A stretch of DNA of 34,512 bases from Halorubrum halophilum (GTDB lineage Archaea > Halobacteriota > Halobacteria > Halobacteriales > Haloferacaceae): assembly GCF_000739595.1 (NCBI RefSeq), contig NZ_BBJP01000067.1, positions 1 through 34,512 on the forward strand. Direction: 5' to 3'. The notes under the pieces were generated by a model. That model was given only the letters and a program-made list of their open reading frames with translations. It searched no databases and had not been told where the DNA came from. The number at the start of each line of letters is the position of its first letter. The stretch's first letter is position 1. The position numbers were made by a program, and so were the translations under genes. Below, piece by piece: positions 8,464 to 34,512 of this stretch.

Positions 8464-8470
8464 CTGGTAG

Positions 8471-8670: not shown

Positions 8671-8692
8671 CTTTGATGTGGACTCCTGGCAA

Positions 8693-9940: not shown

Positions 9941-9964
9941 AGTTTCAGAGAGTACCCGACGGTA

Positions 9965-9972
9965 CTTATAAA
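9965..9972 (-). promoter_or_regulatory. TATA box of tnpB
   Basis: TTTATAAG on the minus strand, centred about 28 bp before the ATG at 9940; the spacing fits a leaderless transcript. Confidence 0.55.
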
Positions 9973-10027
9973 CATGGGAGTCGGTCGGTTGCAGTGTGGC
10001 GGTTGTGTCGTACCATGTCGGTTTCCT

Positions 10028-10070
10028 CCCCGACCTACTCGCTCACTCCGTTCGCTCCTTGAGGTCGGGG
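10028..10070 (-). repeat. Orphan TnpB-type right-end hairpin
   Basis: CCCCGACCT (10028-10036) pairs perfectly with AGGTCGGGG (10062-10070). The loop sequence (ctcgctcactccgttcgctc) is the same type as in the other right ends of this window and points the same way, but no tnpB belongs to it. It sits on the 5' side of the intact tnpB and is best read as the remnant of another element. Confidence 0.55.
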
Positions 10071-10104
10071 GCTCCACCTCGAAGATAACTGAGTCGGCTT
10101 TTCT

Positions 10105-11034
10105 ATGCTCACCACACCGAACAGGGGACCAAGGCAAATTGACGACGGGGCGGTTTCCCAGCCAGCGCTGGATCTGCTGTACGCGATTGGCGAGTGGTAC
10201 AACGGCGCTGAGTTCCATCGGGATGGGCAGTTGCTCTCGATCGCGACCTCACAGCCGCCGAAGCTTCAGACACTAATCGAATGTGGCGACAATTTTTGGG
10301 ACTACCGCTACGCGGACGCGTTCCATGAGTTAGAATTTCTCGGCTGGGTTTGCGGGAGTGAGGACCCCGAGTGGATCCTGTCCAAGCCCGTGAAGTGGGC
10401 TCCGACGCGCCAAGGTCAGGCGGCGATTGGTGATTTCTTCCGCGAGGAGTTTATCGAGAAGTACGAAGGAATCATCCGCTCTGGCGGCGGGCTCGTCGGG
10501 TACTTGGACGAGATGCTGACGCACCGGACGGGCGTGGAGCTCTGTCACTTTGCTGGTGGACACGAAAGCTACGCAACAGGATACTTCAACGATCACCCGT
10601 GGGAGAATATTGAGGTGTACTCAGGCGATCGCAGACACGCTCGGCCGGATGTCGCCACTGCTGACAAGTGGACCAGCTGGGAAGTCATCACTAGCGACGA
10701 CGATCTCGTCGAGACCGCCGAGAAGTTGATGCGGGTTCGCGGCCAGTACGAATACGTTCGCTGGCTCTTCGACACGCGAGAGACTGCCTTCCGTGTGCTG
10801 TCGTTCTTCCATGAATCGGACATCACCGACATCCAGATCGTGAACGCGCCGTACGACAATCCCGAGAACTACTCACTCCAAATCGGTCAGGACTTTCTCA
10901 AGCGCAGTCGCGAGGACGATGCGTACTGCGTGAACGGTATCGACCAACTCGAAACGCTCCAGTCCCTCTGGGACCAAAAAGAGCACTTCGCCCAGACCTA
11001 CAACCAAAAATCGCCGACCAAATCCACCCTGTGA
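10105..11034 (+). CDS. Haloarchaeal hypothetical protein, winged-helix plus possible nuclease-like fold
   Basis: 309 residues from ATG. The N-terminal part (LDLLYAIGEWYNGAEF..., then a W/TRQGQAAI segment near 100-108) looks like a winged-helix region. The middle part has ARPDVATADKWTSWEVIT (about 179-196), an arrangement that recalls the PD...(D/E)xK strand pair, but the usual lysine is not obvious, so nuclease activity is doubtful. The C-terminus continues with a helical region (TAEKLMRVRGQYEYVRWLF). The gene lies between two TnpB right-end relics, and its TGA stop falls inside the conserved GTGAACTACCC start of the downstream relic, so the true C-terminus may have been cut by an insertion. 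I do not recognise a named family. Confidence 0.6.
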   Translation: MLTTPNRGPRQIDDGAVSQPALDLLYAIGEWYNGAEFHRDGQLLSIATSQPPKLQTLIECGDNFWDYRYADAFHELEFLGWVCGSEDPEWILSKPVKWAPTRQGQAAIGDFFREEFIEKYEGIIRSGGGLVGYLDEMLTHRTGVELCHFAGGHESYATGYFNDHPWENIEVYSGDRRHARPDVATADKWTSWEVITSDDDLVETAEKLMRVRGQYEYVRWLFDTRETAFRVLSFFHESDITDIQIVNAPYDNPENYSLQIGQDFLKRSREDDAYCVNGIDQLETLQSLWDQKEHFAQTYNQKSPTKSTL

Positions 11035-11235
11035 ACTACCCTCTCCTACTCGCTCACGGTTGGGGCTGTTCGCTCCTTGAGGGATAGGCTTCCTGCTTTC
11101 ACGACGCTCTTTGTGGACCGCCTCGGGGTCAAGCCCCGAGGCACTCGGCCTGCTCCGCCTGTAGACATAACTGTGTCCGTAGGGAGTGCAGTCTCCACAG
11201 ACGTTCCTTCGGAGTGTCCCACTCCTAGTTGTCAA
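11032..11235 (-). pseudogene. tnpB 3' remnant with right-end hairpin
   Basis: On the minus strand this reads as a degraded TnpB C-terminus (RRNVCGDCTPYG..., RPSASGLDPEAVHKERRES) leading into a right-end hairpin near 11036-11090 (CTACCCT against AGGGATAG with one bulge). A second perfect hairpin, GCCTCGGGG/CCCCGAGGC (11120-11142), lies inside the coding remnant. The N-terminal and catalytic parts are gone. It directly abuts the stop of the preceding plus-strand gene. Confidence 0.6.
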
Positions 11236-11423
11236 CTACCCCACCCTACTTCTCTCAGTCTCTCGACTTCGCTCGTTGAGAGAAGGGCTTGTCCGTGAGA
11301 TCGGCCTCGAACCTGTCCGGGTGGGCGGTGAATCCGAATCGGGATGTCCGCGAGTTTCGAGAGTGACAGCACAGTTTGACCGCCCTTCTTGTCGAGCTTG
11401 AAGCCAGCCTGACTGTATTTCAT
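11236..11423 (-). pseudogene. Internal tnpB fragment joined to a right-end hairpin
   Basis: On the minus strand a reading frame starting at 11423 gives KYSQAGFKLDKKGGQTVLSL and SKLADIPIRIHRP, which match the middle beta-strand region of TnpB proteins. It then runs straight into a right-end hairpin, CTTCTCTCA (11249-11257) with TGAGAGAAG (11277-11285). The catalytic RuvC and zinc-finger parts are missing, so this is an internally deleted, MITE-like derivative. It comes from a different tnpB subgroup than the two intact copies. Confidence 0.6.
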
Positions 11424-11498
11424 ATAATTGTCTATTTCTCGGTTCTTCCAGACTAGACCCTGTTCCGGAATCCAGTTTTGGTATAGGAGGGGGTGTGG

Positions 11499-11519
11499 GG
11501 GGGTCTATGAATAATGGAA
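11499..11519 (+). repeat. GGTCTATGAATAATGG repeat, copy 1 (inverted with copy 2)
   Basis: A 21-bp sequence here is found in perfect reverse complement at 11849-11869, and the similarity extends into the G-rich flank. The pair could be the ends of a roughly 370-bp MITE-like element. A third, slightly altered copy lies upstream of cetZ (26572-26590). Confidence 0.65.
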
Positions 11520-11848
11520 GCGGCCGAAAGGTGGGGGTGGGGGGGTCGCGGAATCGTCCCGTTAGACTCCGCCAAACCACGATATTAGACACGAGAGGCT
11601 CTCAAACACTCATATTCAAAAATCTATCTTTAAAACCAAGGTTTTTTATAGAATACACGCGAACAGTATCCGTGATGAGTTATAATCGGGTTGTATAGCC
11701 AACAACACGATTAGTGTGTGACAGAACCACATCACCGTGAGATCTAAGTCGGTCTTCTTCCGAGTTCTATGGTTGTGGCGTCTCTCCCGTGGAATCGTCC
11801 GCGTTATCTGAGTCGCATCTGCCGAGAGGGGGGTACCTTCTCAGCCCG

Positions 11849-11869
11849 TTCCATTATTCATAGACCCCC
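11849..11869 (-). repeat. GGTCTATGAATAATGG repeat, copy 2
   Basis: Exact reverse complement of 11499-11519 over 21 bp. On the plus strand it reads CATTATTCATAGACCCCC and lies about 120 bp before the TATA-like box of the lipoprotein gene. Confidence 0.65.
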
Positions 11870-12021
11870 TCCCCCACCCTTACCCATCTTTGATCTGTTT
11901 CGAGAATATCTCCCGGACAAATTCTCTCAAATATTCTGTCGAGGATCTGTGAGTTAGTGTGAAATACAACCTCATCGAGAGAGTCGCGTAGCTTTACACC
12001 CCACCAGCGTCGACTGTGACC

Positions 12022-13452
12022 ATGGAATCGCCACGAAAACTCACTACTCTTCTTATCATCGCCGGGATGGTCGTCCTCGCCGGATGTACCGGCGGGATAT
12101 CTGGTGACCCAGCTCCTGCTGATCCGGAACCAGCCAACGGTTCGCCAACCGTCACAACCAACGGGAGCGTTGAGGTCCACTACATCAACGTCGGCCAATC
12201 GGTCAGCACGCTCATCACGAGCCCAAACGGCGACACGATGCTCGTCGATACGGGCCACTATAACGACGACGGCGAGCACGTCCTGGCGTATCTCCAACGT
12301 CACGATATTTCCCGGATCGACCACCTCGTAACATCGCATAGTGACGCGGATCACATCGGTGGAAACGCTGCTATCATCGAGTACTACGAAACGGAGGCCG
12401 ACGGGATCGGGGCGGTGTACGACCCCGGTATCGCGTCAAGCACACAAACCTACGCCGAGTATCTCGACGCGATCGAAGCACACGACGTGACACTGTACGA
12501 AACACGCGAAGGCGACACGATCGACTTTGGCGATGTCGACGTCGATGTCCTCGGCCCACCGGACCCGTACCTCGAAAACGAAGATCGCAACGAGAACAGC
12601 ATTGTCCTCAAGCTCACCCACGGCGAAACGAGCTTCCTGCTCTCAGGCGATGCCGAGGACGATCAGGAAGCATATCTCGTCGACGAATACGGGTCAGAGC
12701 TGGAGTCGACAATTCTGAAAGCCGGCCACCACGGCTCTGCGAGCTCGTCAAGTGGAGCGTTTCTTGATGCGGTCGATCCGCAAGCAGTCGTAATCTCGAG
12801 CGCGTATGATTCCCAATACGGACATCCCCACGAGGAGGTCCTCGAACGACTCGCTGAGCGTTCACACCCAGCGTATTGGACCGCCACGCACGGCAACATC
12901 GTCTTAACTAGCGACGGACAGAACGTTACTGTCCAAACCCAGCGAGACGCCCCGACTGATCCGAGTACGCTCCGTGAGGGCGATCCGATCGACGTTGGAG
13001 TGCCTGACGCTGTTAATGACCGTGCCCGCATTGAGAGCGATGGGACAACCAGTATCGACACTGGTAGCAACGACACTCCCGATGACACGGACAGCGAGAC
13101 AGATGAGACGACAGCTGAAGCCGCCCTGACAGTCGCCGATATCCATGCGGATGCGGCTGGTGATGACCGTGATAATCTGAACGACGAATACGTTGTCTTC
13201 GAGAACACCGGTAACGAGACGCTGGATCTGTCTGGCTGGACGATCGAAGACGAAGCAGGTCAGAGTTATACTGTTCCCGAGGGGTTCGAGCTTGCTGCCG
13301 GTGAAACAGTGACACTACACACAGGAAGTGGAACAAGTACAACTACTGAGTTGTACTGGGGTTCTGGCTCACCGATTTGGAACAACGACGGGGATACCGT
13401 GATCGTCAGTACTCCTAACGGGGAGCGCGTCCTAGAGGAGACATATTCATGA
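12022..13452 (+). CDS. Lipoprotein with metallo-beta-lactamase fold and lamin-tail domain
   Basis: 476 residues from ATG (a GTG six bases earlier is less likely). Residues 1-22 are a lipoprotein signal with lipobox LAGC (C22), so the protein is exported and anchored outside the cell. Residues about 50-310 are a ComEC/Rec2-type metallo-beta-lactamase domain: YINVGQ, then the metal motif HSDADH (106-111), SGDAEDD, and GHHGS. Catalytic metal ligands look complete. A Thr/Asp-rich linker follows, then a C-terminal lamin-tail domain (about 370-476: VVFENTGNETLDLSGWTIED... IWNNDGDTVIV). This combination suggests an extracellular nuclease or hydrolase (inference). The stop overlaps the next gene by ATGA. 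A fragment of the same lamin-tail domain occurs again at 17025-17180. Confidence 0.85.
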   Translation: MESPRKLTTLLIIAGMVVLAGCTGGISGDPAPADPEPANGSPTVTTNGSVEVHYINVGQSVSTLITSPNGDTMLVDTGHYNDDGEHVLAYLQRHDISRIDHLVTSHSDADHIGGNAAIIEYYETEADGIGAVYDPGIASSTQTYAEYLDAIEAHDVTLYETREGDTIDFGDVDVDVLGPPDPYLENEDRNENSIVLKLTHGETSFLLSGDAEDDQEAYLVDEYGSELESTILKAGHHGSASSSSGAFLDAVDPQAVVISSAYDSQYGHPHEEVLERLAERSHPAYWTATHGNIVLTSDGQNVTVQTQRDAPTDPSTLREGDPIDVGVPDAVNDRARIESDGTTSIDTGSNDTPDDTDSETDETTAEAALTVADIHADAAGDDRDNLNDEYVVFENTGNETLDLSGWTIEDEAGQSYTVPEGFELAAGETVTLHTGSGTSTTTELYWGSGSPIWNNDGDTVIVSTPNGERVLEETYS

Positions 13453-15016: not shown

Positions 15017-16315
15017 ATGGAGGATATGATCCGTACCGTCAAAGTCAAACTCGACGTGCCAGACGGGCGGTACGACGACCTCCATCAGACAAAAGACCAG
15101 TTTCTCTACTGTGCGAACACGACCGCAGCGTGGGCGTGGCGACACCCGGACGAGCACTGCGTCACGTCGAAACAACAAGCCGAGAACGCGCTTTACGACC
15201 GGCTTCGGGACGAAACAGCGCTGACAGCGAACGTCGTTCAGAAGGGGATTCGACGTGCTATCGAGGCCACGAAAAGCGGTGTCGCCCGACTCAAAAAGGG
15301 CGAAACAACCAGCCAACCACAGTTCGACGCATGGAGCGTCGTTTACGACAAGCGCAGCGCAACGTTCCACCGCGACCACGTCTCCCTTTCAACGGTGAAT
15401 GGGCGCGTCGAGTGTGAGTACGTACTTCCTGACGATCCTGAGGAGACACCGATCGGCGAGTACCTGCTGAACGAGGAGTACGAGTTCCGGATGTCCACGC
15501 TCCAGTACGACCGCTCTAGCGAGGCGTTCTATCTCCACGCGCGAATGCGCCGCACCACAGACAAGCATGAGCAGTCCACGACTGCTTCTAACGCCGAGCA
15601 CAGAACAGTCCTTGGCGTTGACCTGAACGTGGACGGCTCGCTCGCCGTGACGTCGACCGGTGCGTTCATCGGGAACGCCGACGAGATCAACCATCGACGC
15701 CGCGAGTTCGAGAAGACGCGTGGATCGATGCAGCAGACAGGGACACGGTCGGCACACCTGTCGATCCAGTCGATGGACGATCGCGAACACCGCTGGATAC
15801 AGGACGAACTCCACCGTGCTTCGAACCAGATTCTCGACGAAGCTCGCGATCACGGATGTACGCACGTCGCGTTCGAGAACTTGACCGATATCCGTGATCG
15901 GATGGCTGGTGCGAAGCGATTCCACGCGTGGGCGTTCCGACGCTTGTACGAGTACGTCGAGTACAAAGCCGAGCTGCTCGGTGTCGAGGTCGAGCAGGTG
16001 AGCCCGGCGTACACGAGCCAGCGGTGTTCGAAGTGTGGCTTTACACACGAGACGAATCGGGGGTCGAAACACCAGTTCACGTGCCAGAAGTGCGAGTACG
16101 AACTGAACGCGGACTACAACGCGAGCAAGAACATCGCTCGGAAACTCCTCAAACGACTCCATTCGGAGCAGAAGTCTTCGGATGGAGGCGCACCCTGTCA
16201 GTATGCGCTGAAGTCAGGGACGCTGACCCTGAATGGCGGATTCACCGCCACCGTCGATTCGACGGCAGAAGGGGAGTCCACTGACAAGCCCACGACTTCA
16301 GTCGTGGGTTACTGA
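15017..16315 (+). CDS. tnpB: TnpB RNA-guided nuclease (IS1341-type OrfB), second copy
   Basis: 432 residues from the ATG at 15017 (an ATG at 15026 is also possible). Catalytic residues are intact: D202 (GVDLNVDGSLAV), E287 (FENLTDIRD) and D366 (NADYNASKNI). The zinc finger has C337, C340, C356 and C359 (CSKCG...CQKCE). It shares the YCANTTAAWAW and SQP(Q/T)F landmarks with the first tnpB. The last codons (DKPTTSVVGY) overlap the right-end hairpin CCCACGACT/AGTCGTGGG at 16289-16308, so the coding frame runs into the RNA-guide region. No tnpA is present. The element ends about 23 bp before the start codon of a small zinc-ribbon gene. Confidence 0.92.
   Translation: MEDMIRTVKVKLDVPDGRYDDLHQTKDQFLYCANTTAAWAWRHPDEHCVTSKQQAENALYDRLRDETALTANVVQKGIRRAIEATKSGVARLKKGETTSQPQFDAWSVVYDKRSATFHRDHVSLSTVNGRVECEYVLPDDPEETPIGEYLLNEEYEFRMSTLQYDRSSEAFYLHARMRRTTDKHEQSTTASNAEHRTVLGVDLNVDGSLAVTSTGAFIGNADEINHRRREFEKTRGSMQQTGTRSAHLSIQSMDDREHRWIQDELHRASNQILDEARDHGCTHVAFENLTDIRDRMAGAKRFHAWAFRRLYEYVEYKAELLGVEVEQVSPAYTSQRCSKCGFTHETNRGSKHQFTCQKCEYELNADYNASKNIARKLLKRLHSEQKSSDGGAPCQYALKSGTLTLNGGFTATVDSTAEGESTDKPTTSVVGY
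16289..16308 (+). ncRNA. Right-end hairpin / omega RNA 3' part of second tnpB
   Basis: CCCACGACT-TC-AGTCGTGGG is a perfect 9-bp hairpin inside the end of the tnpB frame, in the usual position for the 3' end of the TnpB guide RNA scaffold. Confidence 0.55.
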
Positions 16316-21676: not shown

Positions 21677-22720
21677 TCAGTGCCCGGCTGCGGGATGCGT
21701 ATCGTCGTCTCGGTCGGTATCGATCGGTTCGTAGTCGTAATCCATCCCCACAGGAGTGAAGCCAGGAACGTAGCTGAACCGTTTGCCAGGTTCTCTGTAG
21801 AACATCAGGGGGAGACTCCCCCGATCCTCACGTACCCCATACTCTGGAGGCCATTCGTTGAGTTCAGCCGACAGGCTATACACTTGAGGGGCAGGAAGCG
21901 CTCCACGTTCAAGATCGCGGAGATCGAGGACCCGAACTTCGAAGTGACGGGCGAGTTTCTCAGCCCGAGGTGTGAGCTCGGTCGTATGACAGAGGACCGG
22001 CATTGCCCGACAGGCAAACGCTATCGTACACAGCCGGAAGATCTTCGCCGGGGTGATCGTATCGCTCGTCCAGTCTTTACATTGGGCAACGATCCAATCG
22101 CTCGGCTTGTGCTGTTTTGTCTTTCGGGTGGCGACGACGTCAACCTCGAGATTGAACAGTTTCTGTCGAGTCGCTGCTTGGTATCCCCACCGAATCAACG
22201 CCCGCTGGAGTTGATACTCAAGCCACCGCCCATCGCCAACCCCACGCCCAGCCACGTCTGCATAGACAGATCGGTGACTGGAGAGTTTCTCAAGCAGCGT
22301 GGAGTTGTCCGTCGACCCCTCAGAAAGTGCGTCCTGAAGAATGACGATGTGGTCTCGAATCGTTTCGAGTGTTTGCTCGATCGAATACTCTTGTGAGGAG
22401 TGGTCGTACCCCTGAATGGAGAGATCCTCAAGCAGCCGATCGAGACGTAGTTTGATGTGATACAGTGCCTGAGCAGGGTCGTCCCACGTCACCACCTCAT
22501 GATCGCCTTGGGACGGGCGATGCTCTGTATCCGCAAGCTGTCGACGGATCGCTTTGAGCGCGTAAAGCGCGAGGAACAACCGCCGCCGTGTGGTGACAGC
22601 TTGGACGGTCGAAAGTGTCTCCTCGTCTGAGAGAGCGTCCCGGAGCGTCTCGATCGCGTCGATAAGCTGGGTGAGTCCACGATCGAATCCCGGTGGAAGC
22701 GAGAGTGTTTCGTCCGTCAT
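21677..22720 (-). CDS. Mrr-like restriction endonuclease
   Basis: 347 residues from the ATG at 22718-22720, which overlaps the upstream stop. The N-terminal half is helical with repeated Leu/Arg (RDALSDEETLSTVQ, LFLALYALKAIRRQLAD). The C-terminal half has a PD-(D/E)XK restriction fold: LEYQLQRALIRWGY (about 165-180), EVDVVA (about 190) and VAQCKDW (about 210-216), giving E...D...QxK as in Mrr/type IV enzymes. Such nucleases usually cut modified or foreign DNA. Its coupling to a helicase and two small proteins points to a multi-part system. Confidence 0.78.
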   Translation of the reverse strand: MTDETLSLPPGFDRGLTQLIDAIETLRDALSDEETLSTVQAVTTRRRLFLALYALKAIRRQLADTEHRPSQGDHEVVTWDDPAQALYHIKLRLDRLLEDLSIQGYDHSSQEYSIEQTLETIRDHIVILQDALSEGSTDNSTLLEKLSSHRSVYADVAGRGVGDGRWLEYQLQRALIRWGYQAATRQKLFNLEVDVVATRKTKQHKPSDWIVAQCKDWTSDTITPAKIFRLCTIAFACRAMPVLCHTTELTPRAEKLARHFEVRVLDLRDLERGALPAPQVYSLSAELNEWPPEYGVREDRGSLPLMFYREPGKRFSYVPGFTPVGMDYDYEPIDTDRDDDTHPAAGH

Positions 22721-23400
22721 TGAGAGAGCGGGCTGGGAGTGAAGTCGTGGCGAGTCAGTGCGGTTTCTGAGAGCGGTAGGAGCGTTGGCTGTCCGTGAGT
22801 GCGAAGGTGGTGGTAGAACTCGTCTGTCGTCGCAGGATACCACTGTGGGCTATCGCGCTCCCGGTAGCGGAGGTCCCCGTCGACGGAGACGACTACACCC
22901 TGCTCGGTGGTGGCCGTCTTCGCGAACACGAGCGCAGGCGGATCCGGACGAGCCCAACTGTCGCGGGTCCACTCGAGCATCGTTTCGATCGGTGTGGGAT
23001 CGACTGGCTCTGGATACCGCGCCGCTGCTGGAGCACGTATCGCGACGTTGTCGAGGCGGTCACTCCCACAGGTACGCCACTCAGCGCCAGTCCACTCCCA
23101 TTCGCGACGGGTCCACGTCTCGCCAGTGCTGTCGGGCTCGAACCGGAGGCGGCGAGGCGGAGCACTCGGTGGGTCCCACTGGAGGATACATGTCCCGTCA
23201 TCAGCGAGTGTAGCGTCCTCAGTTCGGCGACGATACGCGAACAGTGCGGCGTCGATCTGTGACCGTGCCCGCCGTAATGTGGAGAGTGGGTCATCTCCCG
23301 GCATGGTAGGGGCCTCAGAGTCGTTGACTGTCTCGAACAGCCGGTGGAAACTCGTGTCGATGTCTCTGAGCGTCTCCAGTTCTGGCTGATACTCGGTCAT
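22717..23400 (-). CDS. Unknown protein of the Mrr-helicase operon
   Basis: 227 residues from the ATG at 23398-23400, which overlaps the stop of the winged-helix gene by four bases; its own stop overlaps the nuclease start. It has a helical N-terminus (LRRARSQIDAALFAYRRRTE) and a Trp-rich middle (REWEWTGAEWRTCGSDRL, ILQWDPPSAPPRRLRF) that looks like a beta-rich binding module. No family recognised. Tight coupling on both sides suggests it is a structural or specificity part of the system. Confidence 0.7.
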   Translation of the reverse strand: MTEYQPELETLRDIDTSFHRLFETVNDSEAPTMPGDDPLSTLRRARSQIDAALFAYRRRTEDATLADDGTCILQWDPPSAPPRRLRFEPDSTGETWTRREWEWTGAEWRTCGSDRLDNVAIRAPAAARYPEPVDPTPIETMLEWTRDSWARPDPPALVFAKTATTEQGVVVSVDGDLRYRERDSPQWYPATTDEFYHHLRTHGQPTLLPLSETALTRHDFTPSPLSQ

Positions 23401-23783
23401 TGGGACTCCTCCGAATCTGGCTTGTAACACGCAGTCTGGAGTCGGCGGATGTGTTCGGCGAGGGGTTCGGTCGCGTCTGTCGGAGAGACGGACTTCGATC
23501 GGTCATCAAACGCGATTGCGCCGCACTCATCGAGCGTCTCGAGATGCGATTGGGTCAGCGAGATGTAGACTGAGGTGCGTTCGTTGCTCCTGATTTTACT
23601 GGGGTCAATCGCATTCTCGATGGCGGCGATTTCGACGGCCAGATCACCTGCGGTAGTTGCTCCATGCGACTGTGAGAGTGAGAGCAAGACGCGCCGGCGA
23701 CGACTGTTTGCGATCGCGTTGAACGCACGGTCTGGATCCATCGGGATGGCGAACGATGTCGGATCGTCGGTGGCTTCGGTCAC
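23397..23783 (-). CDS. Haloarchaeal winged-helix protein (DUF7344-like)
   Basis: 128 residues from a GTG at 23781-23783 (a TAA lies directly before it; an internal ATG at 23741 is the alternative). The segment DRAFNAIANSRRRRVLLSLS, then VYISLTQSHLETLDECGAIA, is the haloarchaeal ArsR-like winged-helix pattern called DUF7344. Predicted DNA-binding protein, probably the operon's regulator or DNA-contact subunit. Its GTG overlaps the stop of a 56-residue upstream ORF. Confidence 0.75.
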   Translation of the reverse strand: MTEATDDPTSFAIPMDPDRAFNAIANSRRRRVLLSLSQSHGATTAGDLAVEIAAIENAIDPSKIRSNERTSVYISLTQSHLETLDECGAIAFDDRSKSVSPTDATEPLAEHIRRLQTACYKPDSEESQ

Positions 23784-25329: not shown

Positions 25330-26502
25330 TCAAAACAGCGACTCCAACTCCCCATCGCTATCCATCAGCTCCGAGAAACGGCCCTCGCTCTCGTCAGTGA
25401 TCTCCCCGAGATTCTGTTGTGCTTCGATTGCGACTTGCTGGAGCTCTTTCACTCGCGGGACGTTCGTCACGCCACCGAGCAGTACGAGTGCCGCGACCGT
25501 TCCCTCACCACGTCGTGGATAGTCACCACCGCGGACTTCCATCGATCCGGTCTGTTCTTCGAGCCACTTGCGACCGTGCTCGATTCCCTTCCGGTTGAGA
25601 TACTCTGGCGGGCCGGCAACCACAAGCAGCGCTCGCTCTGTCCCGCTCACCTCACAGGGTAAAGTGAGCCGACCGAGCGTTGCCTTTCGGACGAGACTCG
25701 TAATTCGATTCGTCGCCTCTGTACTGTCGATCCCGTTATCTGTATCGCCACGGAGTCGCGAGAGCAATCCCTTCCGCTCTGGCTCGTCCACCTCGACATC
25801 GGCATAGCCCAGCGAGGAGATCCCACCGCCTTTGAGCGTATTGATGATCTCCGAAGAGTCAACCACGCTTTCGGCGACATCGCTTCCCTCGGTTATCTCG
25901 CCCGCACTGAAGAGCACGCCGAACCGCTGGACGAGCTCCTCGTTGATCGCGTCGAACCCTTCCTCCACGGATTCACCCGAGCTGCGCCAGGCGTCGTTGT
26001 CAAACAACATGAGGTTGTCCACCTCGTCGACGAACGTCTTGAGCGATCGAGCGGCGTTCAGCGTGTAGATCCCACCCTCGTCACTGCCGGGCAGAATGCC
26101 GAGCCCGTACACAGGTTCAGTGTAGATCCGCTTGAGGTTCTTGGCAATCACGGGCGCCCCACCTGACCCCGTCCCGCCACCAAGCCCCGCAACGACGAGG
26201 AACGCATCGATCTCGTGGACCGGCACTGAGTCGAGCGCGCCCTGAACCTCGTCGATGTCTTCTTCGGCCACCTCTGCGCCGAGTTCGTTATCTGCGCCCA
26301 CACCGTGTCCCTTCACTCGCGATTGACCGATCAGGATCCGGCGGTCTTTCGAGAGGTGGTCGATTCCCTGGAGATCTGCTTTCGCCGTGTTGACGGCGAT
26401 CGCTCCCCGAACGATATCAGCGCCTGTCCGTGCGTCGTAGGCCAGGAACTCGTCGACCACCTTCCCACCCGCCTGTCCGACCCCGATCAATGCGAGTTTC
26501 AT
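25330..26502 (-). CDS. cetZ: CetZ tubulin-like GTPase
   Basis: 390 residues from ATG at 26500-26502. The N-terminal nucleotide-binding start MKLALIGVGQAGGKVVDEFL, the CetZ-type GQSRVKGHGVGADNELG segment (59-74) and the tubulin signature GGGTGSG (108-114) identify it. CetZ proteins polymerise with GTP under the membrane and control haloarchaeal cell shape and motility. Length fits the family. A TATA box CTTTATACG lies about 38 bp before the ATG, and an inverted repeat CATGTG...CACATG overlaps the start. Whether it is a CetZ1, CetZ2 or an accessory-element paralogue cannot be settled by eye. Confidence 0.92.
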   Translation of the reverse strand: MKLALIGVGQAGGKVVDEFLAYDARTGADIVRGAIAVNTAKADLQGIDHLSKDRRILIGQSRVKGHGVGADNELGAEVAEEDIDEVQGALDSVPVHEIDAFLVVAGLGGGTGSGGAPVIAKNLKRIYTEPVYGLGILPGSDEGGIYTLNAARSLKTFVDEVDNLMLFDNDAWRSSGESVEEGFDAINEELVQRFGVLFSAGEITEGSDVAESVVDSSEIINTLKGGGISSLGYADVEVDEPERKGLLSRLRGDTDNGIDSTEATNRITSLVRKATLGRLTLPCEVSGTERALLVVAGPPEYLNRKGIEHGRKWLEEQTGSMEVRGGDYPRRGEGTVAALVLLGGVTNVPRVKELQQVAIEAQQNLGEITDESEGRFSELMDSDGELESLF

Positions 26503-26518
26503 GTGAACATACCACATG
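26500..26518. promoter_or_regulatory. Inverted repeat at the cetZ start
   Basis: CATGTG-AACATAC-CACATG overlaps the ATG of cetZ. It may be an operator or an accident of short length. Confidence 0.3.
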
Positions 26519-26571
26519 TGACTACGCAGGTTAGACGTATAAAGCTTGGAAGAACACTGGAAAACCGGTGT

Positions 26572-26590
26572 GGGGGGTCCATGAATAATG
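26572..26590 (+). repeat. GGTCYATGAATAATG repeat, copy 3
   Basis: GGGGGGTCCATGAATAATG matches the inverted pair at 11499-11519 and 11849-11869 with one change (C for T). It lies about 30 bp upstream of the cetZ TATA box. Confidence 0.6.
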
Positions 26591-26702
26591 TAATCGACCC
26601 AGAGCACTCGCAAAATGGTCTGGTCAATGAGAGACAAGACAAAATGGAGTGAACAGCCCCGCCAAAAGTTGCGTGTCGCTACTCGTCAGCCGTCCGGTTC
26701 GC

Positions 26703-27062
26703 TTACTGATTGTAGGGGTGGTCTTCCGGATCGTGGTACCATCCGTCGCCGCCGAAGTACGGGTGCGGTGTGACGAGGTCGACGCCGGTCGTTCCCTCTG
26801 GCAGTGGTATGTTCCCGATCTTCTCGCTCTGCGCTTCGATCTCCTCGCCGAACTCGCCATCCGAGTTGACACCTATCTCTCGAAGCAGCCGCTCGACCTT
26901 GATGTTGATCTGTTCCATCTTGATCCGCTGATGGCGGTTGTTCACTCCTTCTCGAAGCAGCAGTTCGATCGTTCGGTTCCGAGAAATGTTATCGTGCTCT
27001 GCGACATCGTCGATGAGCTCGGCGAGTTCATCAGCAACGTATCCGGTAATGTGTGTCGGCAT
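26703..27062 (-). CDS. Ribbon-helix-helix DNA-binding protein
   Basis: 119 residues. Residues about 3-45 (HITGYVADELAELIDDVAEH, then ISRNRTIELLLREGV) follow the CopG/Arc-type strand-helix-helix pattern, with S/R-N-R-T at the turn. A helical segment (KMEQINIKVERLLREIG) and a Gly/Pro/Tyr-rich tail (PHPYFGGDGWYHDPEDHPYNQ) follow. RHH proteins bind short operator or centromere repeats as dimers. It sits next to the long repeat region and is the best local candidate to bind it (inference). Confidence 0.75.
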   Translation of the reverse strand: MPTHITGYVADELAELIDDVAEHDNISRNRTIELLLREGVNNRHQRIKMEQINIKVERLLREIGVNSDGEFGEEIEAQSEKIGNIPLPEGTTGVDLVTPHPYFGGDGWYHDPEDHPYNQ

Positions 27063-27139: not shown

Positions 27140-27702
27140 ATCACTACAGAGTTGGTTCCCCCCAATCGCGCAGTTGGCTTCCCTTCGCATCGTCGTCAGC
27201 CCGACTGTGTTATCGGTGGTCGCTGGACGTCCCGTTGTATCTGCCCCGCCCGCGGCTCGTTGTGCCTATCCCCACACCAAAGGGTGGGTATTGTGTTGAC
27301 GCGACTGCCTCTACTAGACATAGGTCGGCTAGTCTTCGTTGGTGTGCTCGCCGGGACGTCTACTCGCTTGGTTGCGATAGCCACTCTGTCCGGACGGACC
27401 ACCCTCTCACTCGCTGCCTGTCTAGACTTCTAACCAACTCGTCTTTCCTCGCCAATCCAGTATCTGATTTCTGATATACGTTCTGTGATATCTCGCTCGA
27501 TTTCTCGACTCTCTATTCTTCTCCCGGCTCCGCCCTGTTCCCTCGCTACGCGACCGACCATCTAGTCGATCTGCTCTCTAGCCCCCTAACATTGTGAATT
27601 TGCGGAACCTAACCACAGGGGAGGAGAGATATATTAGAGGATCTCTAAAGCCCCCTCAGGCCGTTAGAACCTAACCAGCGACATTAGAGGGGAGGGTAGT
27701 GT
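27140..27702 (+). repeat. Non-coding block A (first copy of the duplicated module)
   Basis: Pyrimidine-rich block without a convincing gene. It pairs with block B at an offset of 1450-1453 bp. Clear shared stretches: GTGTTGACGCGA (27293), GGTTGCGATAGCC, CCAATCCAGTATCTGATTTC (27452), CCTCGCTACGCGACCGACC (27541) and the core 27583-27680. The core has ACATTGTGAATT, GCGGAACCTAACC, hairpin TTAGAG-GAT-CTCTAA (27634-27648), CCCCCTCAGG and hairpin GTTAG-AAC-CTAAC (27663-27675). Array 1 follows at once. Confidence 0.75.
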
Positions 27703-28200
27703 TACATTGAAATGCCTCAAACCGGTTCACGTACCCTTGTTTTCGGTGATGACATTCATATTATAATTTTTACACTGAATCATGTCTAAGTTGCTTCCGT
27801 CTAATTATATGGACTGGGTATCAGACTGGAATATTGTATTATACAAAACCCACCCAATACCGTTGCCGTATACTTATTCTTCTACTTACATAGACACACC
27901 CGAATCAGGCTACCGTCTAGTTATTCATGGTTATCGGATAGTATGTAGGAATTCTAAGACTATGCTAGGGCTCTCTTACATGAGATGGTACTAATTGTGG
28001 TCTCGTCTGCTTGTTTCGGTTTTTACACTGTTCAGGAAGTATCGTGCCACCATCTACTTATTTTTGAATTTCGTCGTAATGGCCGATGACGGATCTCAGT
28101 ATTTCACCATGTTACATAAGGAAGCACTAGATCCTGTCCTGTCTGCTTATTCAATAATATACATCCACATGGGCCAAATCCACCGCAGTCTGCTTATTCA
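27703..28200 (+). repeat. Phased array 1: eight 41-bp units, TACAT...CTTATTCA type
   Basis: Units start at 27703, 27771, 27840, 27887, 27977, 28024, 28113 and 28160. Seven of eight start with TACA (the third is shifted two bases, TATACA). The right part is close to CCGTCTGCTTATTCA at unit positions 27-41; most units keep GTCT and TTATT. The middle is variable, with ATC near position 19 in four units. Start-to-start distances are 68, 69, 47, 90, 47, 89 and 47 bp, the same as in array 2. Confidence 0.8.
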
Positions 28201-28589: not shown

Positions 28590-29153
28590 CCTCTACTGAG
28601 GTTCTCGCTTGCCCTCCGCGTATCGATTACCCCTCGCGTGATTGCCCGTCGTACTTTGCTGTCGCTGGCTGCTGTTCGCTCCGATTGTGTCTGCCCCTGC
28701 TGCGACTGCTCGTCGGTGTCCGCCTCTACATCGAACGGAGTGGAGGTGTTGACGCGAGTATCTGTGTCGGACGTCGGTTGTTGTCTCTCCGAGAGTGATC
28801 CCTAGGTAGTGTCTCATCTCGGTTGCGATAGCCGACTTCTCTGAATGGGTCACTCTCTCGGTAGCCGTTTGTCCCGCCTCCTGGTCGACTCAATTCTCCC
28901 CCACCAATCCAGTATCTGATTTCTGATACACTCTCTGCGACATCTCGTTCGATCTCATCATTCTGTCCTCGCCCCTTGGCTCCGCCCCGTCTCCTCGCTA
29001 CGCGACCGACCTTCTGGTCATTTTTCTCTCTGAGCCCCTAACATTGTGAATTCGCGGAACCTAACCTGAGAGGTTGAGAGAGATATTAGAGACTCTCTAA
29101 AGCCCCCTCAGGTTGTTAGAACCCAACCAGCGGGATTATCGGGTGGGGTGTGT
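28590..29153 (+). repeat. Non-coding block B (second copy of the duplicated module)
   Basis: Second copy of block A. The core 29035-29132 keeps ACATTGTGAATT, GCGGAACCTAACC, TTAGAG-ACT-CTCTAA (29086-29100), GCCCCCTCAGG and GTTAG-AAC-CCAAC (29115-29127). The 6-bp stem of the first hairpin is unchanged while its three-base loop differs from block A (ACT for GAT). Short open frames on both strands are not conserved in the two copies. Confidence 0.75.
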
Positions 29154-29650
29154 TAATTACACAACGCACCAAATCGACCGCCGTCCTGTAATTATGGTGT
29201 ATGTCAAAGAGATATGGTTTTTAATTAAGTAATGCCTCTATCGGACCCACGTCTATTAATTATTTTGAATAGGCGGCTAATATTGCTGCTAATTACGAAC
29301 CAACGGAATCACGGAGCAGTCTTGTGATTACACGGGTGATTACAACACCCCTGTATCAGCCTTGCGTCTTGTAATTAGAGAGCGGAAGACAACATGTCAA
29401 CTTCTGCGAATTCTGGATTTTTGCTGTAATTAGAATAGTGCTCTATCTGCTTCTCTTCATGTGATTATAGAATTAATTACCGACCCGGTATATCCGCTTG
29501 CCGTCTTGTAATTAGGAAATTCAGATTTTCTCCTTAGAAGATCTGAGCCACGGCCTTACAAATAATTACGAACTCCATTGAATCGCATCCCGTCTTGTGA
29601 TTACAATTTTAATTAAAGAGTGCCTGTTATCGGTCGCAGTCTGGTAATTA
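29154..29650 (+). repeat. Phased array 2: eight 41-bp units, TAATTA...TAATTA type
   Basis: Units of exactly 41 bp start at 29154, 29222, 29290, 29337, 29427, 29474, 29563 and 29610. Every unit starts with TAATTA (TGATTA in the fourth) and ends with TAATTA or TGATTA. ATC is at positions 19-22 in all eight. CGTCTTGTAATTA is the consensus of positions 29-41. Distances are 68, 68, 47, 90, 47, 89 and 47 bp, which also gives a period of 136-137 bp for every second unit (first, third, fifth and seventh units). The ends TAATTAC/GTAATTA are inverted repeats. Confidence 0.85.
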
Positions 29651-29928: not shown

Positions 29929-30204
29929 CTAAATTTTTATTGCTGCTCTTGCTGAGATCGGTTGAATATTGACTGTTGCTCCTCCAGATCTCCGTGGAAT
30001 ATTGACAGTTGCTCCCCCTGATATCCGTGGAATATTGACTGCTCGTCTTTCTGTTATTACTTTAGTTTCCTCAAAATAACCCACGTTCTGCTTGATTGTG
30101 GGCGCATATGCTTGCGGCTGGACCTTAATTCTGGGTAAGTTGATTTGCTCAGGGTTGCCGATACGGATGTTGGTTTTGAGATTCACTCGGAGGTCGATTA
30201 TCAA
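29929..30204 (-). CDS. Small protein with 11-residue repeats
   Basis: 91 residues from ATG, 33 bp after the stop of the HerA-like ATPase gene on the same strand. The C-terminal third has three in-frame 11-residue repeats (VNIPRISGGAT, VNIPRRSGGAT, VNIQPISARAA), encoded by 33-bp direct repeats at 29942-30040. The rest (RVNLKTNIRIGNPEQINLPR, IKVQPQAYAPTIKQNV) is basic and polar. The period that is a multiple of three and the operon position support a real gene. Function unknown. Confidence 0.45.
   Translation of the reverse strand: MIIDLRVNLKTNIRIGNPEQINLPRIKVQPQAYAPTIKQNVGYFEETKVITERRAVNIPRISGGATVNIPRRSGGATVNIQPISARAAIKI
29942..30040 (-). repeat. Three 33-bp direct repeats
   Basis: Units at 29942-29974, 29975-30007 and 30008-30040 share the plus-strand core GGAATATTGAC(A/T) and (G/A)TTGCTCC-type starts; the first is more diverged. 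They encode the 11-residue repeats of the 91-residue ORF. Confidence 0.7.
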
Positions 30205-30237: not shown

Positions 30238-33200
30238 CTAGTCGTCTCTCAGGTCCTTCCTGAGTTTGTTGATGCCGAAGATTTTCTGAGCGCCGTCCGC
30301 GTCGAGTTCGTCGCTGACCTTCTTGAAGTTGTCCGATTCTCTCGCCTCGATATACCCAATGTGGGCTGTTAGCGACGACAGCAGCTTTCGCATACCTTCG
30401 GCGTTTTTGACGACCCAGATGGCGTCGGCGTCCGCATCCTTGAGTTTGTAGTAGTCGCCTACAACGTGTCGCCGCTTCTCCGGGGACAGCTCAACTTCGA
30501 TGACTTTGTCCCGATCGTCGGGAGATTCCTCTGTCGCCTCGACGTAGAGATCGAATTTGAGTTCGCTGCCCTCGGGGGTGTAGTACATGTGCGTCTCGTA
30601 GCCGAGCCCGTCGTAATATGCGTCGATGAGCCTGACGCCGACCCGGTGTTCCGGGCTTTCCCGGCCGTACTCACCACCGTCTCGTGGCGCGAGATTCTTC
30701 CCGGCGACGACGTTTGCTTCGTCTGTCGGCCAGTAGTACGCCTGTCTGTTTCCGAGTTCGAACTTCTCTAAGAACCCCCACTCGATGAGATCGGGTGCCG
30801 TCTCGCTGTACGGCAGGACGTTCATCGAGTCCTTGATGTGGTAGCTATTGAGGCCGTCTGTGAGTGCGTCAAAGACCATTCCGAGGAACGCCGAGTGGTC
30901 GCTTGTGAACTCCTCAGAGTCTTCTGGCGCTTCGTCTTCATCGTCCGAGTCCCCGTCGTCATCTCCACCAGATTTCACGCCGCTGTCCATGTCGATCGCT
31001 TCGTGTTCGCGGTTGACGCAGTGGCGATCTCGGCTTCGTTCGCGGACGAGGTCTTCACGCGAGCTGACGTTGAACGGTCCCGCACTATGCCCTGGTGGGA
31101 TGGGAAGTGGCCGGAGCGTGAGTATCTCTGGCTTCTGTTTGTGGAAGCCTGTCGACGGTAGTTGGACGAGCCACTCCCCCCGCCGGAGACCTGCGATACG
31201 GTCTTTGATCTCGTCGTTTTCGAGATCTTCGTGGAACAGCGACTCCGCTAAGAGGTCGTCCGTCGCGACGTTGCCGATGATCTTCGTGTTGATGTTGTTG
31301 AGGATTTCTTTGTACGCCCGACGATTGTCCTGTGGATTCTCTCCGAGTACCTGCTCGGGATACTGCATGATGAGCCCGAGCGAGAGGTTGAACTCGCGCC
31401 CTTTCGGGAGGAGCTCTCGGTAGACGATTTCGTTGCGAGCGATGTTCGCAGACTCTTCGATGATGACGTTCGTGATGTATTCATCATCGTCTGGCGTCCA
31501 GATTGACTGCGCCGAAGTCCACAGATGAGACAAGAACAGGACGGTGAAGACTTCGCTGCTGGCCCCGCGGAGACTCCCTGTGTCGATGAGGACGACCTTG
31601 TTCGAGTTGAGGATGCTCTTCATGTCGAGCATCGGAATCTGCTCTTTGTTGTACCAGTTTGTGTCGTCGTTCCAGTACTCGTCGTCGACTGTGTACGACA
31701 GCATATCCCAGATGAAGTCGCGCTCTTTCAGCTTCCGGATCCGGTTGAGAACCGCGTCGGTGGTGTTCATGAACTGGCGTGCGTCCTTCTCAAGGTGGGA
31801 CTCGAGGATGGACGTCACCTGCGTGTCGACCGTTCGCGGGATCGCCTTGAGAACTGTCTCGTAGTCCTCGTCGATGTCTTCGACATCCTTGCCGTACTTC
31901 TGGAATTCCTGTGCGGCTTCCATGAGTTCGCCGATCGAGAAGTAATCCTTCCCGTGTTCGCGGTCGAACAGCGCCTTGATCAGGTTGGTGAGGATTTCGT
32001 TTGCGACGAACGCCTGCTCGACTGTCTTCTTCCCGAGGACGAATCTGAGCAGTTGGAAGTAGTGGTCGATGATGTCCTGTTTGGCTGTCTCTCGGGTCCG
32101 CCCGGCACCCTCTGTGAGCGGCCGGAGGTCGAAGAATGGCATCCCTGGAACCTTGCCCTCTGCTTCTGGGATTTGGATGTATTCGACGTCCGCGAGGTTC
32201 CCGAACAGCGTCCGGTGACACCGCAGGTAGTTCTCACACATCTCGCCGTCCTTGGGATCGATGAGGATTGTCGGCCCCTCGAGGTTGTGGTGGGTGGTGA
32301 GCATGTCGTTGATCGTCGCGACCGTTTTCCCGCTCCCAGTCGTTGCTGCGCGGATGTAGTGCTGGGTGAGATGATCTGCTGACAGCGACAATGCATCCCG
32401 CTTCGCGAGGTGGTCCCACCACTCGTTTTTGCTCTGGATGGTGCTGATCTTGTCCGGCTCCTCGGAGTTATCTCGGAGTGCGGTGACGGCGTGACCGATC
32501 GTCATGCCGGTCGAGAACTCCTTGAATACTTCCTCGTTGGGCGAGGTGAGCGGTGATTGAGCTGTCGGTCTCCCGCCGGTCCCACCTCGACTCGCTTTCG
32601 GCAGCGTGTCGATTGACGGGACCGTGATGAAGTTTGAGAGCTCGTCAATGTTACAGACGAGAATCGGCTTTTGTCGCGACCAGGACTCGAGCCCGTTCGG
32701 GTAGGTGATCCCGTGGCTGAGCATCCGCTTGTACTCAGGTTCGTTCGTACCGAGGTAGTTCCCCTCGATGGAGTAGAACTTCCCACTGAGCTGGTTGAGT
32801 GAATCTTGGAGATTCCGGGCGCACTCGGTGTCTGAGGTGGCCGCTCGGAGCGTGACGTTGTACGTGTGAGATGGATCTTTCAGGTCGATCTGACCCATCC
32901 GTCCCGTGCCTGAGCGGTAGCCTGCGGTCTGTGAGTCGTGGATTGAGCCGCCGATTTCGTGGGGCGTGTCGCTCCGGTGGCGCTCTTGTTTTTCCTCATT
33001 AGAGACGCCGAGGACCCCGTCGAGAAGTGTCCGAAGGAAGAGCCCGCCGGTCGTGTGGACGCCTTGCTTGAGGTTTCCTTTCTGCCGTTCGGCTTTCGGA
33101 GACCAGTCTGCGCGTGGCTCGAAAACCGCTTGAAAGACGACCGAGCCCTCTGTTTGGATGATGGTTTCGAGGAGATTGGAGAGCGGCGAGCGTTCGATCG

Positions 33201-33804
33201 TTTCGTTGTCGAACGACGAGAGCGTCGTCATCCAGTCCCGTCGTTTCTCCTCAACACCCTCCCACCGCACCATCTCGGGGACATCATCGAAGACGTTCGT
33301 GATGTCAAAGTTTTCCCGTCCGAATTCGAAGTTCTCCGGATACTGCGATCGCGTAGTGCTTTCGAGTCGGTCACAGGTGACTTCGCCGCGCTCTCCCGGC
33401 CCGATGAAGAACTTGAACTGGGCTTCGTCTTCTGGCTTGTAGATGATGAACTCGAAGTTTGAGACGGGCTCGATACCAGCGACATGGAGTTCCATATCGA
33501 GCGGGAGCTTACGCCCGTTTCCGTATCGATGGAGTCCGTAGAGTTCTCGTTTGACCGTCTCTGAGTTCACCTCCTCACGCACGGGGATTATCTGAATGTA
33601 TTCTTGTTCGGATTCGATCTGTTCGATGAAGTCTTCCGCTTCGTCAGTGTCGATCTCCCCGCTGAGTGAAGCACTAGCGGAGGTCTCGTCAGCATCAGAT
33701 TTTGGTGTGGAGTCCGCTTCTTCCGCATCAGGTGATGCATCCGGATTTGTTGGTTCACCGGATTCCGGAGGCCCTTTATCAGGTTTATTTTCTTTTTTAC
33801 TCAC
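30238..33804 (-). CDS. HerA/VirD4-like ATPase with C-terminal nuclease-like domain
   Basis: 1188 residues from a GTG at 33802-33804 (39 more if the ATG at 33921 is used; that extension is not acidic and overlaps a promoter-like stretch and a hairpin, so I prefer the GTG). An acidic N-terminal tail and a beta-rich domain come first. Then the motor: Walker A AATTGSGKT (near base 32330), VVLIDTGS, and Walker B-like NVIIEESANIA (near 31460), as in HerA/TraG/VirD4 DNA-pumping ATPases of haloarchaeal plasmids. After an acidic linker (SGGDDDGDSDDEDEAPED) comes a winged-helix-like part and a C-terminal PD-(D/E)XK-like region (KFDLYVEA... KVIEVELS). It may pump or transfer DNA in conjugation, segregation or packaging. 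The nuclease domain may give site recognition (inference). Confidence 0.8.
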   Translation of the reverse strand: MSKKENKPDKGPPESGEPTNPDASPDAEEADSTPKSDADETSASASLSGEIDTDEAEDFIEQIESEQEYIQIIPVREEVNSETVKRELYGLHRYGNGRKLPLDMELHVAGIEPVSNFEFIIYKPEDEAQFKFFIGPGERGEVTCDRLESTTRSQYPENFEFGRENFDITNVFDDVPEMVRWEGVEEKRRDWMTTLSSFDNETIERSPLSNLLETIIQTEGSVVFQAVFEPRADWSPKAERQKGNLKQGVHTTGGLFLRTLLDGVLGVSNEEKQERHRSDTPHEIGGSIHDSQTAGYRSGTGRMGQIDLKDPSHTYNVTLRAATSDTECARNLQDSLNQLSGKFYSIEGNYLGTNEPEYKRMLSHGITYPNGLESWSRQKPILVCNIDELSNFITVPSIDTLPKASRGGTGGRPTAQSPLTSPNEEVFKEFSTGMTIGHAVTALRDNSEEPDKISTIQSKNEWWDHLAKRDALSLSADHLTQHYIRAATTGSGKTVATINDMLTTHHNLEGPTILIDPKDGEMCENYLRCHRTLFGNLADVEYIQIPEAEGKVPGMPFFDLRPLTEGAGRTRETAKQDIIDHYFQLLRFVLGKKTVEQAFVANEILTNLIKALFDREHGKDYFSIGELMEAAQEFQKYGKDVEDIDEDYETVLKAIPRTVDTQVTSILESHLEKDARQFMNTTDAVLNRIRKLKERDFIWDMLSYTVDDEYWNDDTNWYNKEQIPMLDMKSILNSNKVVLIDTGSLRGASSEVFTVLFLSHLWTSAQSIWTPDDDEYITNVIIEESANIARNEIVYRELLPKGREFNLSLGLIMQYPEQVLGENPQDNRRAYKEILNNINTKIIGNVATDDLLAESLFHEDLENDEIKDRIAGLRRGEWLVQLPSTGFHKQKPEILTLRPLPIPPGHSAGPFNVSSREDLVRERSRDRHCVNREHEAIDMDSGVKSGGDDDGDSDDEDEAPEDSEEFTSDHSAFLGMVFDALTDGLNSYHIKDSMNVLPYSETAPDLIEWGFLEKFELGNRQAYYWPTDEANVVAGKNLAPRDGGEYGRESPEHRVGVRLIDAYYDGLGYETHMYYTPEGSELKFDLYVEATEESPDDRDKVIEVELSPEKRRHVVGDYYKLKDADADAIWVVKNAEGMRKLLSSLTAHIGYIEARESDNFKKVSDELDADGAQKIFGINKLRKDLRDD

Positions 33805-33825
33805 GGTGACATTTCCAACACAACC

Positions 33826-33850
33826 CCCCCAAATAGCTCTTTTTTGGGGG
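33826..33850 (-). promoter_or_regulatory. Leader hairpin before the HerA-like gene
   Basis: CCCCCAAA (33826-33833) pairs with TTTGGGGG (33843-33850) with a 9-base loop. It lies 22-46 bp before the GTG at 33804 and downstream of a TATA-like AATAGTATAC (33871-33880). It supports a leader transcript and the inner start. Confidence 0.4.
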
Positions 33851-33921
33851 TCTACAAACTGTTCAATGTGTATACTATTCCGGGAATTATCCAGATTGAC
33901 TACGGTAGCACGTATACTCAT

Positions 33922-34231
33922 TTGAACACGACCCAGTTAGGTTCGCCGACACGAAGGAAATGACTGATAGCGACGACGAGACCAATGACGACTCACACCG
34001 CAACTGCGTCGTAGCGACTGGGGGTTAGTGCCGAGCGGACCGAGGTCACAACTGGTGAACTCGGTAATACGCTGCACCAGTTCTTCGATTTCAGCTTGGA
34101 TTTCGGTTGTGTCTTCGTCGGCACCAGCTAAAGGTTCTGACCATACCTACCGATTCCGACCGCTCGGTGGTGACATCCTCCTCGCCGTAAACGGCGAGGC
34201 TTCCCGTACCGCAGGTGGGATATTTGCTGGT
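33922..34231. other. Intergenic region with TnpB right end
   Basis: No convincing gene. A 22-codon frame at 33960 (MTDSDDETNDDSH...) and a minus-strand stretch (TTEIQAEIEELVQRITEF) look protein-like but are very short and may be remnants. The tnpB right-end hairpin lies at 34180-34199. Confidence 0.45.
34180..34199 (-). ncRNA. Right-end hairpin of third tnpB
   Basis: CCTCGCCGT-AA-ACGGCGAGG, framed by GACATCCT and CTTCCC, 33 bp after the tnpB stop on the minus strand; the expected place of the guide-RNA scaffold. Confidence 0.6.
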
Positions 34232-34512
34232 CTACGACACGACCTGTTCTCTCGTGTGAAACGTCCCGCTCTCGCGGTCGAACAAGTGTGTCGATGGCTG
34301 TGCCACACAGCCGTTACTCCTATCCTCGCCGTGAGGACTCGGAGTTATCTTCTGACGCATATTCTCCGCCCCGTTACAGTCCGCGTTGGCTACCAACTCG
34401 CACGACGAGCAGACGTACAGGCCACGTTCGACGCGATTCGATTTCGTCTCGTCTCCACAGCGGGAACACGTTTTCGAGGTGTTCCACTCGTTTTCTTTCA
34501 GCACCTCCACAC
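34232..34512 (-). CDS. tnpB: TnpB, C-terminal part (gene runs off the window)
   Basis: The last 93 codons are visible. VEVLKENEWNTSKTCSRCG and YVCSSCELVANADCNGAENM are the zinc finger (CSRCG, CSSC) and the last RuvC aspartate (NADCNGAEN) of a TnpB. The subgroup differs from the two other intact copies: NADC instead of NADY, and a different C-terminal tail. The start is beyond base 34512, so completeness cannot be judged. Its right-end hairpin lies at 34180-34199. Confidence 0.85.
   Translation of the reverse strand, partial: VEVLKENEWNTSKTCSRCGDETKSNRVERGLYVCSSCELVANADCNGAENMRQKITPSPHGEDRSNGCVAQPSTHLFDRESGTFHTREQVVS

Follow-up and report, generated by a model that had tools for sequence, protein, structure and literature searches.

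The contig of Halorubrum halophilum analysed here (contig C37, taken in its entirety as a window of 34,512 nucleotides) carries two copies of a previously unreported non-coding DNA element, about 0.75 kb long, which is found on large haloarchaeal plasmids. Each copy is made up of a conserved left block followed by an array of eight 41-bp units. The element is probably an address tag that would be gripped by the plasmid's own proteins for its inheritance or movement. More precisely, with a probability that we put at roughly one half, it would be a replicon-specific, cis-acting DNA site on which a nucleoprotein complex forms, serving plasmid segregation or transfer via an adjacent motor. The element, its conservation, the whole-turn phasing of its units, its two independent variable words and its conserved neighbours can be read directly from the sequence. 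A description of the element was not found in the open-access literature; subscription work may have been missed.

Two elements in the window

The two elements of the window comprise the following features:

27454..27690, + strand: left block 2, which precedes array 2 (nhmmer E = 9.7e-36 over 27454-27670, training member)
27702..28199, + strand: array 2, eight 41-bp units of box class TTACAT/TTATTC, found via the box-free core
28906..29133, + strand: left block 1, non-coding sequence of ~230 bp, conserved over 28906-29128, which precedes array 1 (nhmmer E = 6.7e-35, training member)
29056..29066, + strand: word 1 of the left-block pair, GGAACCTAACC, recognized by its within-element match to word 2
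29084..29102, no strand assigned: dyad TATTAGAG-N3-CTCTAAAG between both words, preserved by paired changes in the alignment
29116..29132, + strand: word 2 of the left-block pair, TTAGAACCCAACCAGCG, recognized by its within-element match to word 1
29154..29650, + strand: array 1, eight 41-bp units of box class TAATTA/TRATTA, exact matches

The units of array 1 start at 29154, 29222, 29290, 29337, 29427, 29474, 29563 and 29610, all on the + strand, which corresponds to start-to-start spacings of 68, 68, 47, 90, 47, 89 and 47 bp and to gaps of 27, 27, 6, 49, 6, 48 and 6 bp. A preliminary description of this DNA had reported eight such units and these gaps, and pattern matching recovers all of them in place. 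The pattern TRATTA-N29-TRATTA matches the window 12 times, each strand being counted, whereas 100 dinucleotide-shuffled versions average 0.01 matches and none of them approached the observed count. A looser unit pattern retrieves only these 8 units, on one strand, from the 3.68-Mb genome, and the reversed-pattern control retrieves 0. The internal structure of the unit differs in part from the preliminary account. An ATC is present in the centre but occupies positions 19-21 or 20-22 instead of 19-22, and the sequence reported at the right end is seen, although its full form CGTCTTGTAATTA is exact in just 2 of the 8 units. The remainder of the unit, which had been thought to vary, carries at positions 7-36 a family-wide consensus of about CGAACCCCC..AATCC.GC.GCCGTCTG.

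The earlier view that the array is not a CRISPR or a simple repeat is supported, and neither is it coding sequence, as no ORF conserved across loci covers it. With respect to CRISPRs, the units are diverged, the gaps range from 6 to 49 bp, CRISPR-adaptation genes are missing and the sole Cas-type Pfam matches in the window are TnpB transposon proteins. Two TnpB-like genes are found at 8693-9940 and 15017-16315. The window also has a defence-like cluster at 236-13452, with an SMC-like (LmuB-like) protein, a PD-(D/E)XK nuclease, a UvrD helicase and a metallo-beta-lactamase with a lamin-tail domain (LmuA-like matches), as well as a sot0042 RNA match at 34179-34350 (- strand), near the contig end.

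Array 2, which the preliminary description had missed together with both left blocks, sits 1.45 kb to the left of array 1. Its units start at 27702, 27770, 27839, 27886, 27976, 28023, 28112 and 28159, and their spacing (68, 69, 47, 90, 47, 89 and 47 bp) reproduces that of array 1 within one base. Its pattern, at 1 mismatch, is found 8 times against 0.4 expected by chance. A third element of the same genome (L041), on contig C56, has TATATA/TATTTA boxes, with its left block at 8303-8532 and an array.

A left block precedes every array, and the first of the eight units starts about 18-19 bp past it. The left block contains GGCTGAAC twice, each time followed by a variable word, with a dyad in between that reads TATAG-N4-CTATA in the relatives. 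It also holds a hairpin-like dyad, CTATCA-N6-TGGTAG, and the constant stretches CGGCTCCGCC, CGCYACGCGACTA and CCCTAATTGTGTGAATTC. To its left lies a leader of about 1 kb with a pyrimidine bias (mean 60-65% C+T, maximum about 80%, compared with about 50% elsewhere), which is weaker in this window. The pyrimidine-rich tract, ~1 kb left of most left blocks, has no conserved ORF (for example at 2600-3730 of L014). At one locus (L037, 6618-8512), an ISH30 insertion splits the left block while the array and the following gene, c12 (see below), are intact, which makes it a natural mutant.

Distribution across haloarchaea

Pattern and model searches at the levels of family, order and class found homologues of the 41-bp array in about 4-5% of the haloarchaeal genomes searched, and a sequence search with the left block was positive in 18 of 391 genomes. 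Among 85,000 prokaryote genomes the exact left-block motif has haloarchaeal matches only, and a scan of a viral collection gave no exact match to it. Direct DNA similarity between the window array and plasmids gave no match either, the array being too diverged. The genera concerned include Halorubrum, Haloplanus, Halobacterium, Haloarcula and Halopiger. Halobacterium salinarum R1 carries the array on the well-studied pHS2 (at about 77,576-78,051 of NC_010369.1), and Halorubrum ezzemoulense Fb21 has two elements on a 607 kb and two on a 57 kb plasmid. Further carriers are p117 of Halorubrum BOL3-1, pHsi204 of Haloarcula sinaiiensis, pHALXA01 of Halopiger xanaduensis, pSTJ001 of Halobacterium hubeiense and a 54 kb plasmid of H. 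noricense. All elements with named complete records are thus borne by plasmids, of 54-607 kb; these span several families and frequently hold two elements each.

The count of units is nearly constant: 28 of the 32 elements have all eight, and the units always share one orientation. The exceptions are an array broken off after the fifth unit, where the following bases resemble inserted sequence (L003), a five-unit copy (L014a), an array at a contig end (L017) and one with a single deviant unit (L039). A 33rd element (L055), found afterwards via a closer homologue of c12, has eight units with CTATAT boxes, called by eye and with an unconstrained repeat finder. No related array was found beside the distant homologues of P0001 (L021-L023).

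Helical phasing of the units

In the 32 elements, start-to-start spacings are confined to 47-48, 67-70, 79-80 and 89-90 bp. The 33rd element (68-70-48-101-48-101-48) adds a 101-bp class, one turn more. Slots 3, 5 and 7 are always 47-48 bp, and slots 2, 4 and 6 vary among elements by about 10-11 or 21 bp only. The phase coherence is R = 0.95 at a period of 10.6-10.7 bp. The dynamic-programming fit had windows around the spacing classes; the classes themselves rest on unconstrained scans, which gave the same values. A straight-line fit to the five classes has a slope of 10.7 bp per step and an offset of 4.4 steps, the offset being near n + 1/2 if a turn is taken as 10.5 bp. Neighbouring units therefore face roughly opposite sides of the double helix. 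Seldom can the geometry of a putative protein-DNA complex be derived, as it is here, from genome comparison alone.

Phasing by whole turns points to a constraint on DNA rather than on RNA or protein coding. It thereby bears on the idea that the left block and array give rise to a non-coding RNA, either structured or with repeats. The high conservation of a region that has no ORF and the strand-biased composition of the leader would agree with such an RNA. Nevertheless, RNAalifold gave a consensus fold of only -5.45 kcal/mol for a 280-column alignment of 23 left blocks, Rfam scans had no match at the left block or array, and insertions and deletions come in whole turns, which makes an RNA the least probable of the explanations considered here. 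The RNA reader of the units envisaged in the preliminary description loses ground for the same reasons. The alternative that it offered, a protein reading both ends and the centre at a fixed geometry, fits the conserved length, boxes, centre and phasing well.

Two independently exchanged words

The boxes at the unit ends fall into classes that differ by element: TAATTA, TTACAT/TTATTC, TATATA/TATTTA, TCATGA/TCATTA, TAAACA, GTATAC and TGAATA. Left and right boxes change jointly and differ by replicon, as would be expected of a site that tells self from non-self; they are candidate binding words. What is conserved across plasmids is the 41-bp length, the presence of both boxes, the central AAT(C/T), a CCGTCTG core and the whole-turn spacing. 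In several classes the boxes are direct repeats 35 bp apart (TGAATA/TGAATA, TCATGA/TCATTA, GTATAC/GTATAC). The inverted look of TAATTAC...GTAATTA is therefore a special case, due to a near-palindromic word.

The left block has a variable word of its own. In 26 thinned elements, the copies that follow GGCTGAAC agree within an element at 4.46 of 6 positions, whereas shuffling yields 2.08 (p <= 5e-5). Box distance and left-block word distance are uncorrelated (r = 0.06). Each of the two words is thus exchanged without the other on a common scaffold, which is what reading by two factors would produce.

Neighbouring genes

In the usual order, a three-gene set (388, 237 and 128 aa) is followed by the RHH gene, the leader, the left block, the array, c12 and a HerA/TraD-like ATPase. 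The conserved neighbour genes are all on the minus strand in the orientation of the element. The genes of the window that matter here are:

21677..23783, - strand: three genes (388, 237 and 128 aa), left of many elements; the 388-aa product is Mrr-nuclease-like by eye only
25330..26637, - strand: gene of the tubulin family (CetZ), adjoining the RHH gene (CetZ_C, E = 1e-80)
26703..27062, - strand: protein of the RHH type (119 aa), on the left of left block 2; one family member matches RHH_5 at E = 0.0013
30238..33921, - strand: HerA/TraD-like ATPase, 1227 aa, with its 3' end towards array 1 (sub-threshold Pfam-type matches)

The most constant neighbour is c12, a small acidic protein, or a remnant of its gene. 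In PLSDB, c12 occurs on 6 plasmids and the element on 6 of these 6. It has been lost beside both window arrays, which suggests either supply in trans or decay here; the only copy in the genome (6540-7001) adjoins the C56 element. Array 1 and the ATPase gene are separated by a stretch that in relatives holds c12 and here has three short 33-bp tandem repeats (AATATTGACTGTTGCTCC...), at 29932-30041. No DNA-binding domain was recognized in c12, and no array was found near its distant homologues (L048-L054, L056); several of these are on chromosome-sized contigs, and c12 represents a wider uncharacterised family.

In roughly a dozen of the 32 elements the ATPase gene flanks the array on its right, and it also adjoins the arrays of the closest plasmid homologues. 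It is missing beside many elements, which suggests that the ATPase is supplied in trans or stands outside the system. Its family assignment relies on motifs read by eye and on sub-threshold matches (SXT_TraD, TraG-D_C and TrwB, weak and all below cut-off; HerA DUF87, weak and in distant homologues). The RHH family adjoins about half of the elements. AlphaFold models of c12 (pLDDT 43) and of the ATPase (pLDDT 31), based on shallow alignments, are unusable.

The covariation of these proteins with the two words was evaluated by Mantel tests, which are approximate since the elements are mutually related. The divergence of c12 correlates with the boxes at r = 0.63, and still at r = 0.52 (p = 4e-4) once the left block is partialled out, but shows no correlation with the left-block words (r = 0.01), making c12 a candidate box reader. 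Two elements (L009 and L001) break this link, and physical linkage could mimic such coadaptation. The preliminary description had named the adjacent RHH protein among the candidates for binding to the units. As box reader this candidate was rejected on covariation: the divergence among RHH proteins parallels the left block (r = 0.90) and, given the left block, hardly the boxes (partial r = 0.08), and RHH proteins that are 91% identical adjoin TCATGA and TATATA boxes. RHH proteins that are 99% identical adjoin different left-block words. The ATPase behaves likewise, its divergence correlating with the left block (r = 0.9) but not with box class.

The position of the genes also bears on another interpretation, in which the array would serve as a cluster of operators or enhancers for the transcription of c12, the ATPase or the RHH gene. 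The element is non-coding, it sits between conserved genes and its sites are phased, as is usual in enhancers. Nevertheless, the array lies past the 3' ends of c12 and the ATPase gene, whose transcription runs towards it, the start of the RHH gene is 0.3-1.6 kb away from the left block, and elements persist after gene loss. A role in transcription control thus appears very unlikely.

Comparison with known plasmid sites

The closest known architecture is that of the sopC (parS_F) centromere of the F plasmid; the element would be built alike without being a member of that class. sopC consists of twelve 43-bp direct repeats (PMC6238139; PMC9178275). Both have units of 41-43 bp that are repeated in the same orientation, each with a short recognition word, in the non-coding DNA of a low-copy plasmid. 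Contrary to sopC, the units of the element are not head to tail, their count is fixed at eight, their spacing varies by whole turns, and they are accompanied by a left block of 230 bp that contains a second pair of words. Multiple short direct repeats, with a putative binding role, are thus common to both, but the element has no adjacent ParA/ParB: ParA genes are about 3 kb or more away, at varying places, and Pfam scans of the window gave none.

Repeated sites that are helically phased, replicon-specific and possible determinants of incompatibility are also known as the iterons of theta plasmids, whose units are about 17-22 bp long. The element could accordingly be a replication origin or an iteron copy-number locus, whose units would be iterons for Rep or Orc and whose boxes would set incompatibility groups. 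Its direct repeats are iteron-like, its sequence is replicon-specific and plasmid-borne, and the left block has a dyad and repeated words. On the other hand, the unit is 41 bp long with boxes at both ends, no known rep family is found next to the element (the neighbours c12 and ATPase are uncharacterised), two elements per plasmid are common, and orc1/cdc6 is located elsewhere on the plasmids whose annotation was read. The orc genes of the relatives are 2-12 kb from the element, and Pfam scans found no orc in the window. Haloarchaeal ORBs end in a G-string, flank an AT-rich element in inverted orientation and stand next to orc/cdc6 (PMC3528665). They share with the element a repeated organization in the intergenic plasmid DNA of the same organisms. 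The units of the element, in contrast, have one orientation and lack the G-string and the inverted ORB arrangement, both hallmarks of haloarchaeal origins (PMC3528665), as well as an adjacent orc/cdc6. An origin or iteron locus is therefore an unlikely explanation.

In type III partition systems (TubZRC), the small DNA-binding protein is the winged-helix TubR (PMC9178275). This window resembles them in having a tubulin-family CetZ gene and a small DNA-binding protein beside repeated sites, but here the small protein is of the RHH type. CetZ was absent from the other element loci searched, and among those loci the CetZ-RHH pair is unique to this plasmid-like window. A CetZ/TubZRC-like partition was rejected, CetZ not being a conserved neighbour.

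The last comparison concerns mobilisation. Conjugative oriT regions are multi-site platforms with boxes for accessory proteins and a coupling ATPase, and the element is likewise a multi-site platform, beside an ATPase that may be of the coupling type. The array and left block could thus be an oriT-like site, holding the transfer apparatus while the neighbouring ATPase does the coupling. The weak similarity of this ATPase to TraD, TraG and TrwB, the pyrimidine-biased leader of about 1 kb and the presence of such plasmids in several families would be congruent with this. Yet no relaxase was recognised and no nick site was identified, several elements have no ATPase, and in PLSDB MOB-suite classes 7 of 7 element plasmids (from a DNA search) as non-mobilizable, a tool that may miss archaeal systems. 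We consider an oriT improbable, to about the same degree as an origin.

Proposed function

The reading that we prefer remains a replicon-specific site for segregation or transfer. Copies of a replicon-specific DNA-binding protein would bind the end boxes and the central motif of the eight units, and the whole-turn steps between units would allow these copies to pack together as a single nucleoprotein body. The paired word of the neighbouring left block would be read by another factor. The complex could then mark the plasmid as 'self' and hand it to a DNA motor, of which the adjacent HerA/TraD-like ATPase would be the likeliest. The preliminary description had also named a HerA-like ATPase as a candidate for binding; roughly a dozen of the 32 elements do have it as a neighbour, and a role of the enzyme on the complex is suggested by its position only. 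ParA and orc1/cdc6 genes are present elsewhere on the element-bearing plasmids, so that partition and replication may already be served, which speaks somewhat against an origin or a ParABS centromere.

A more specific version of this hypothesis, which we hold tentatively and think rather doubtful in all its parts together, is that the element represents a new class of identity elements in archaeal plasmids, with eight half-turn-phased units, two independently exchangeable words, c12 as reader and a HerA/TraD-like motor. If true, segregation or transfer would here rely on a system with no relation to ParABS, ParMRC and TubZRC, and the fold of c12 would be novel for DNA binding. The identity, inheritance and movement of large haloarchaeal plasmids and secondary chromosomes are poorly known, and the element offers a concrete, recognisable site for their study. 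Since its two specificity words are separable and a candidate reader is available, incompatibility, partition and transfer are now open to direct tests.
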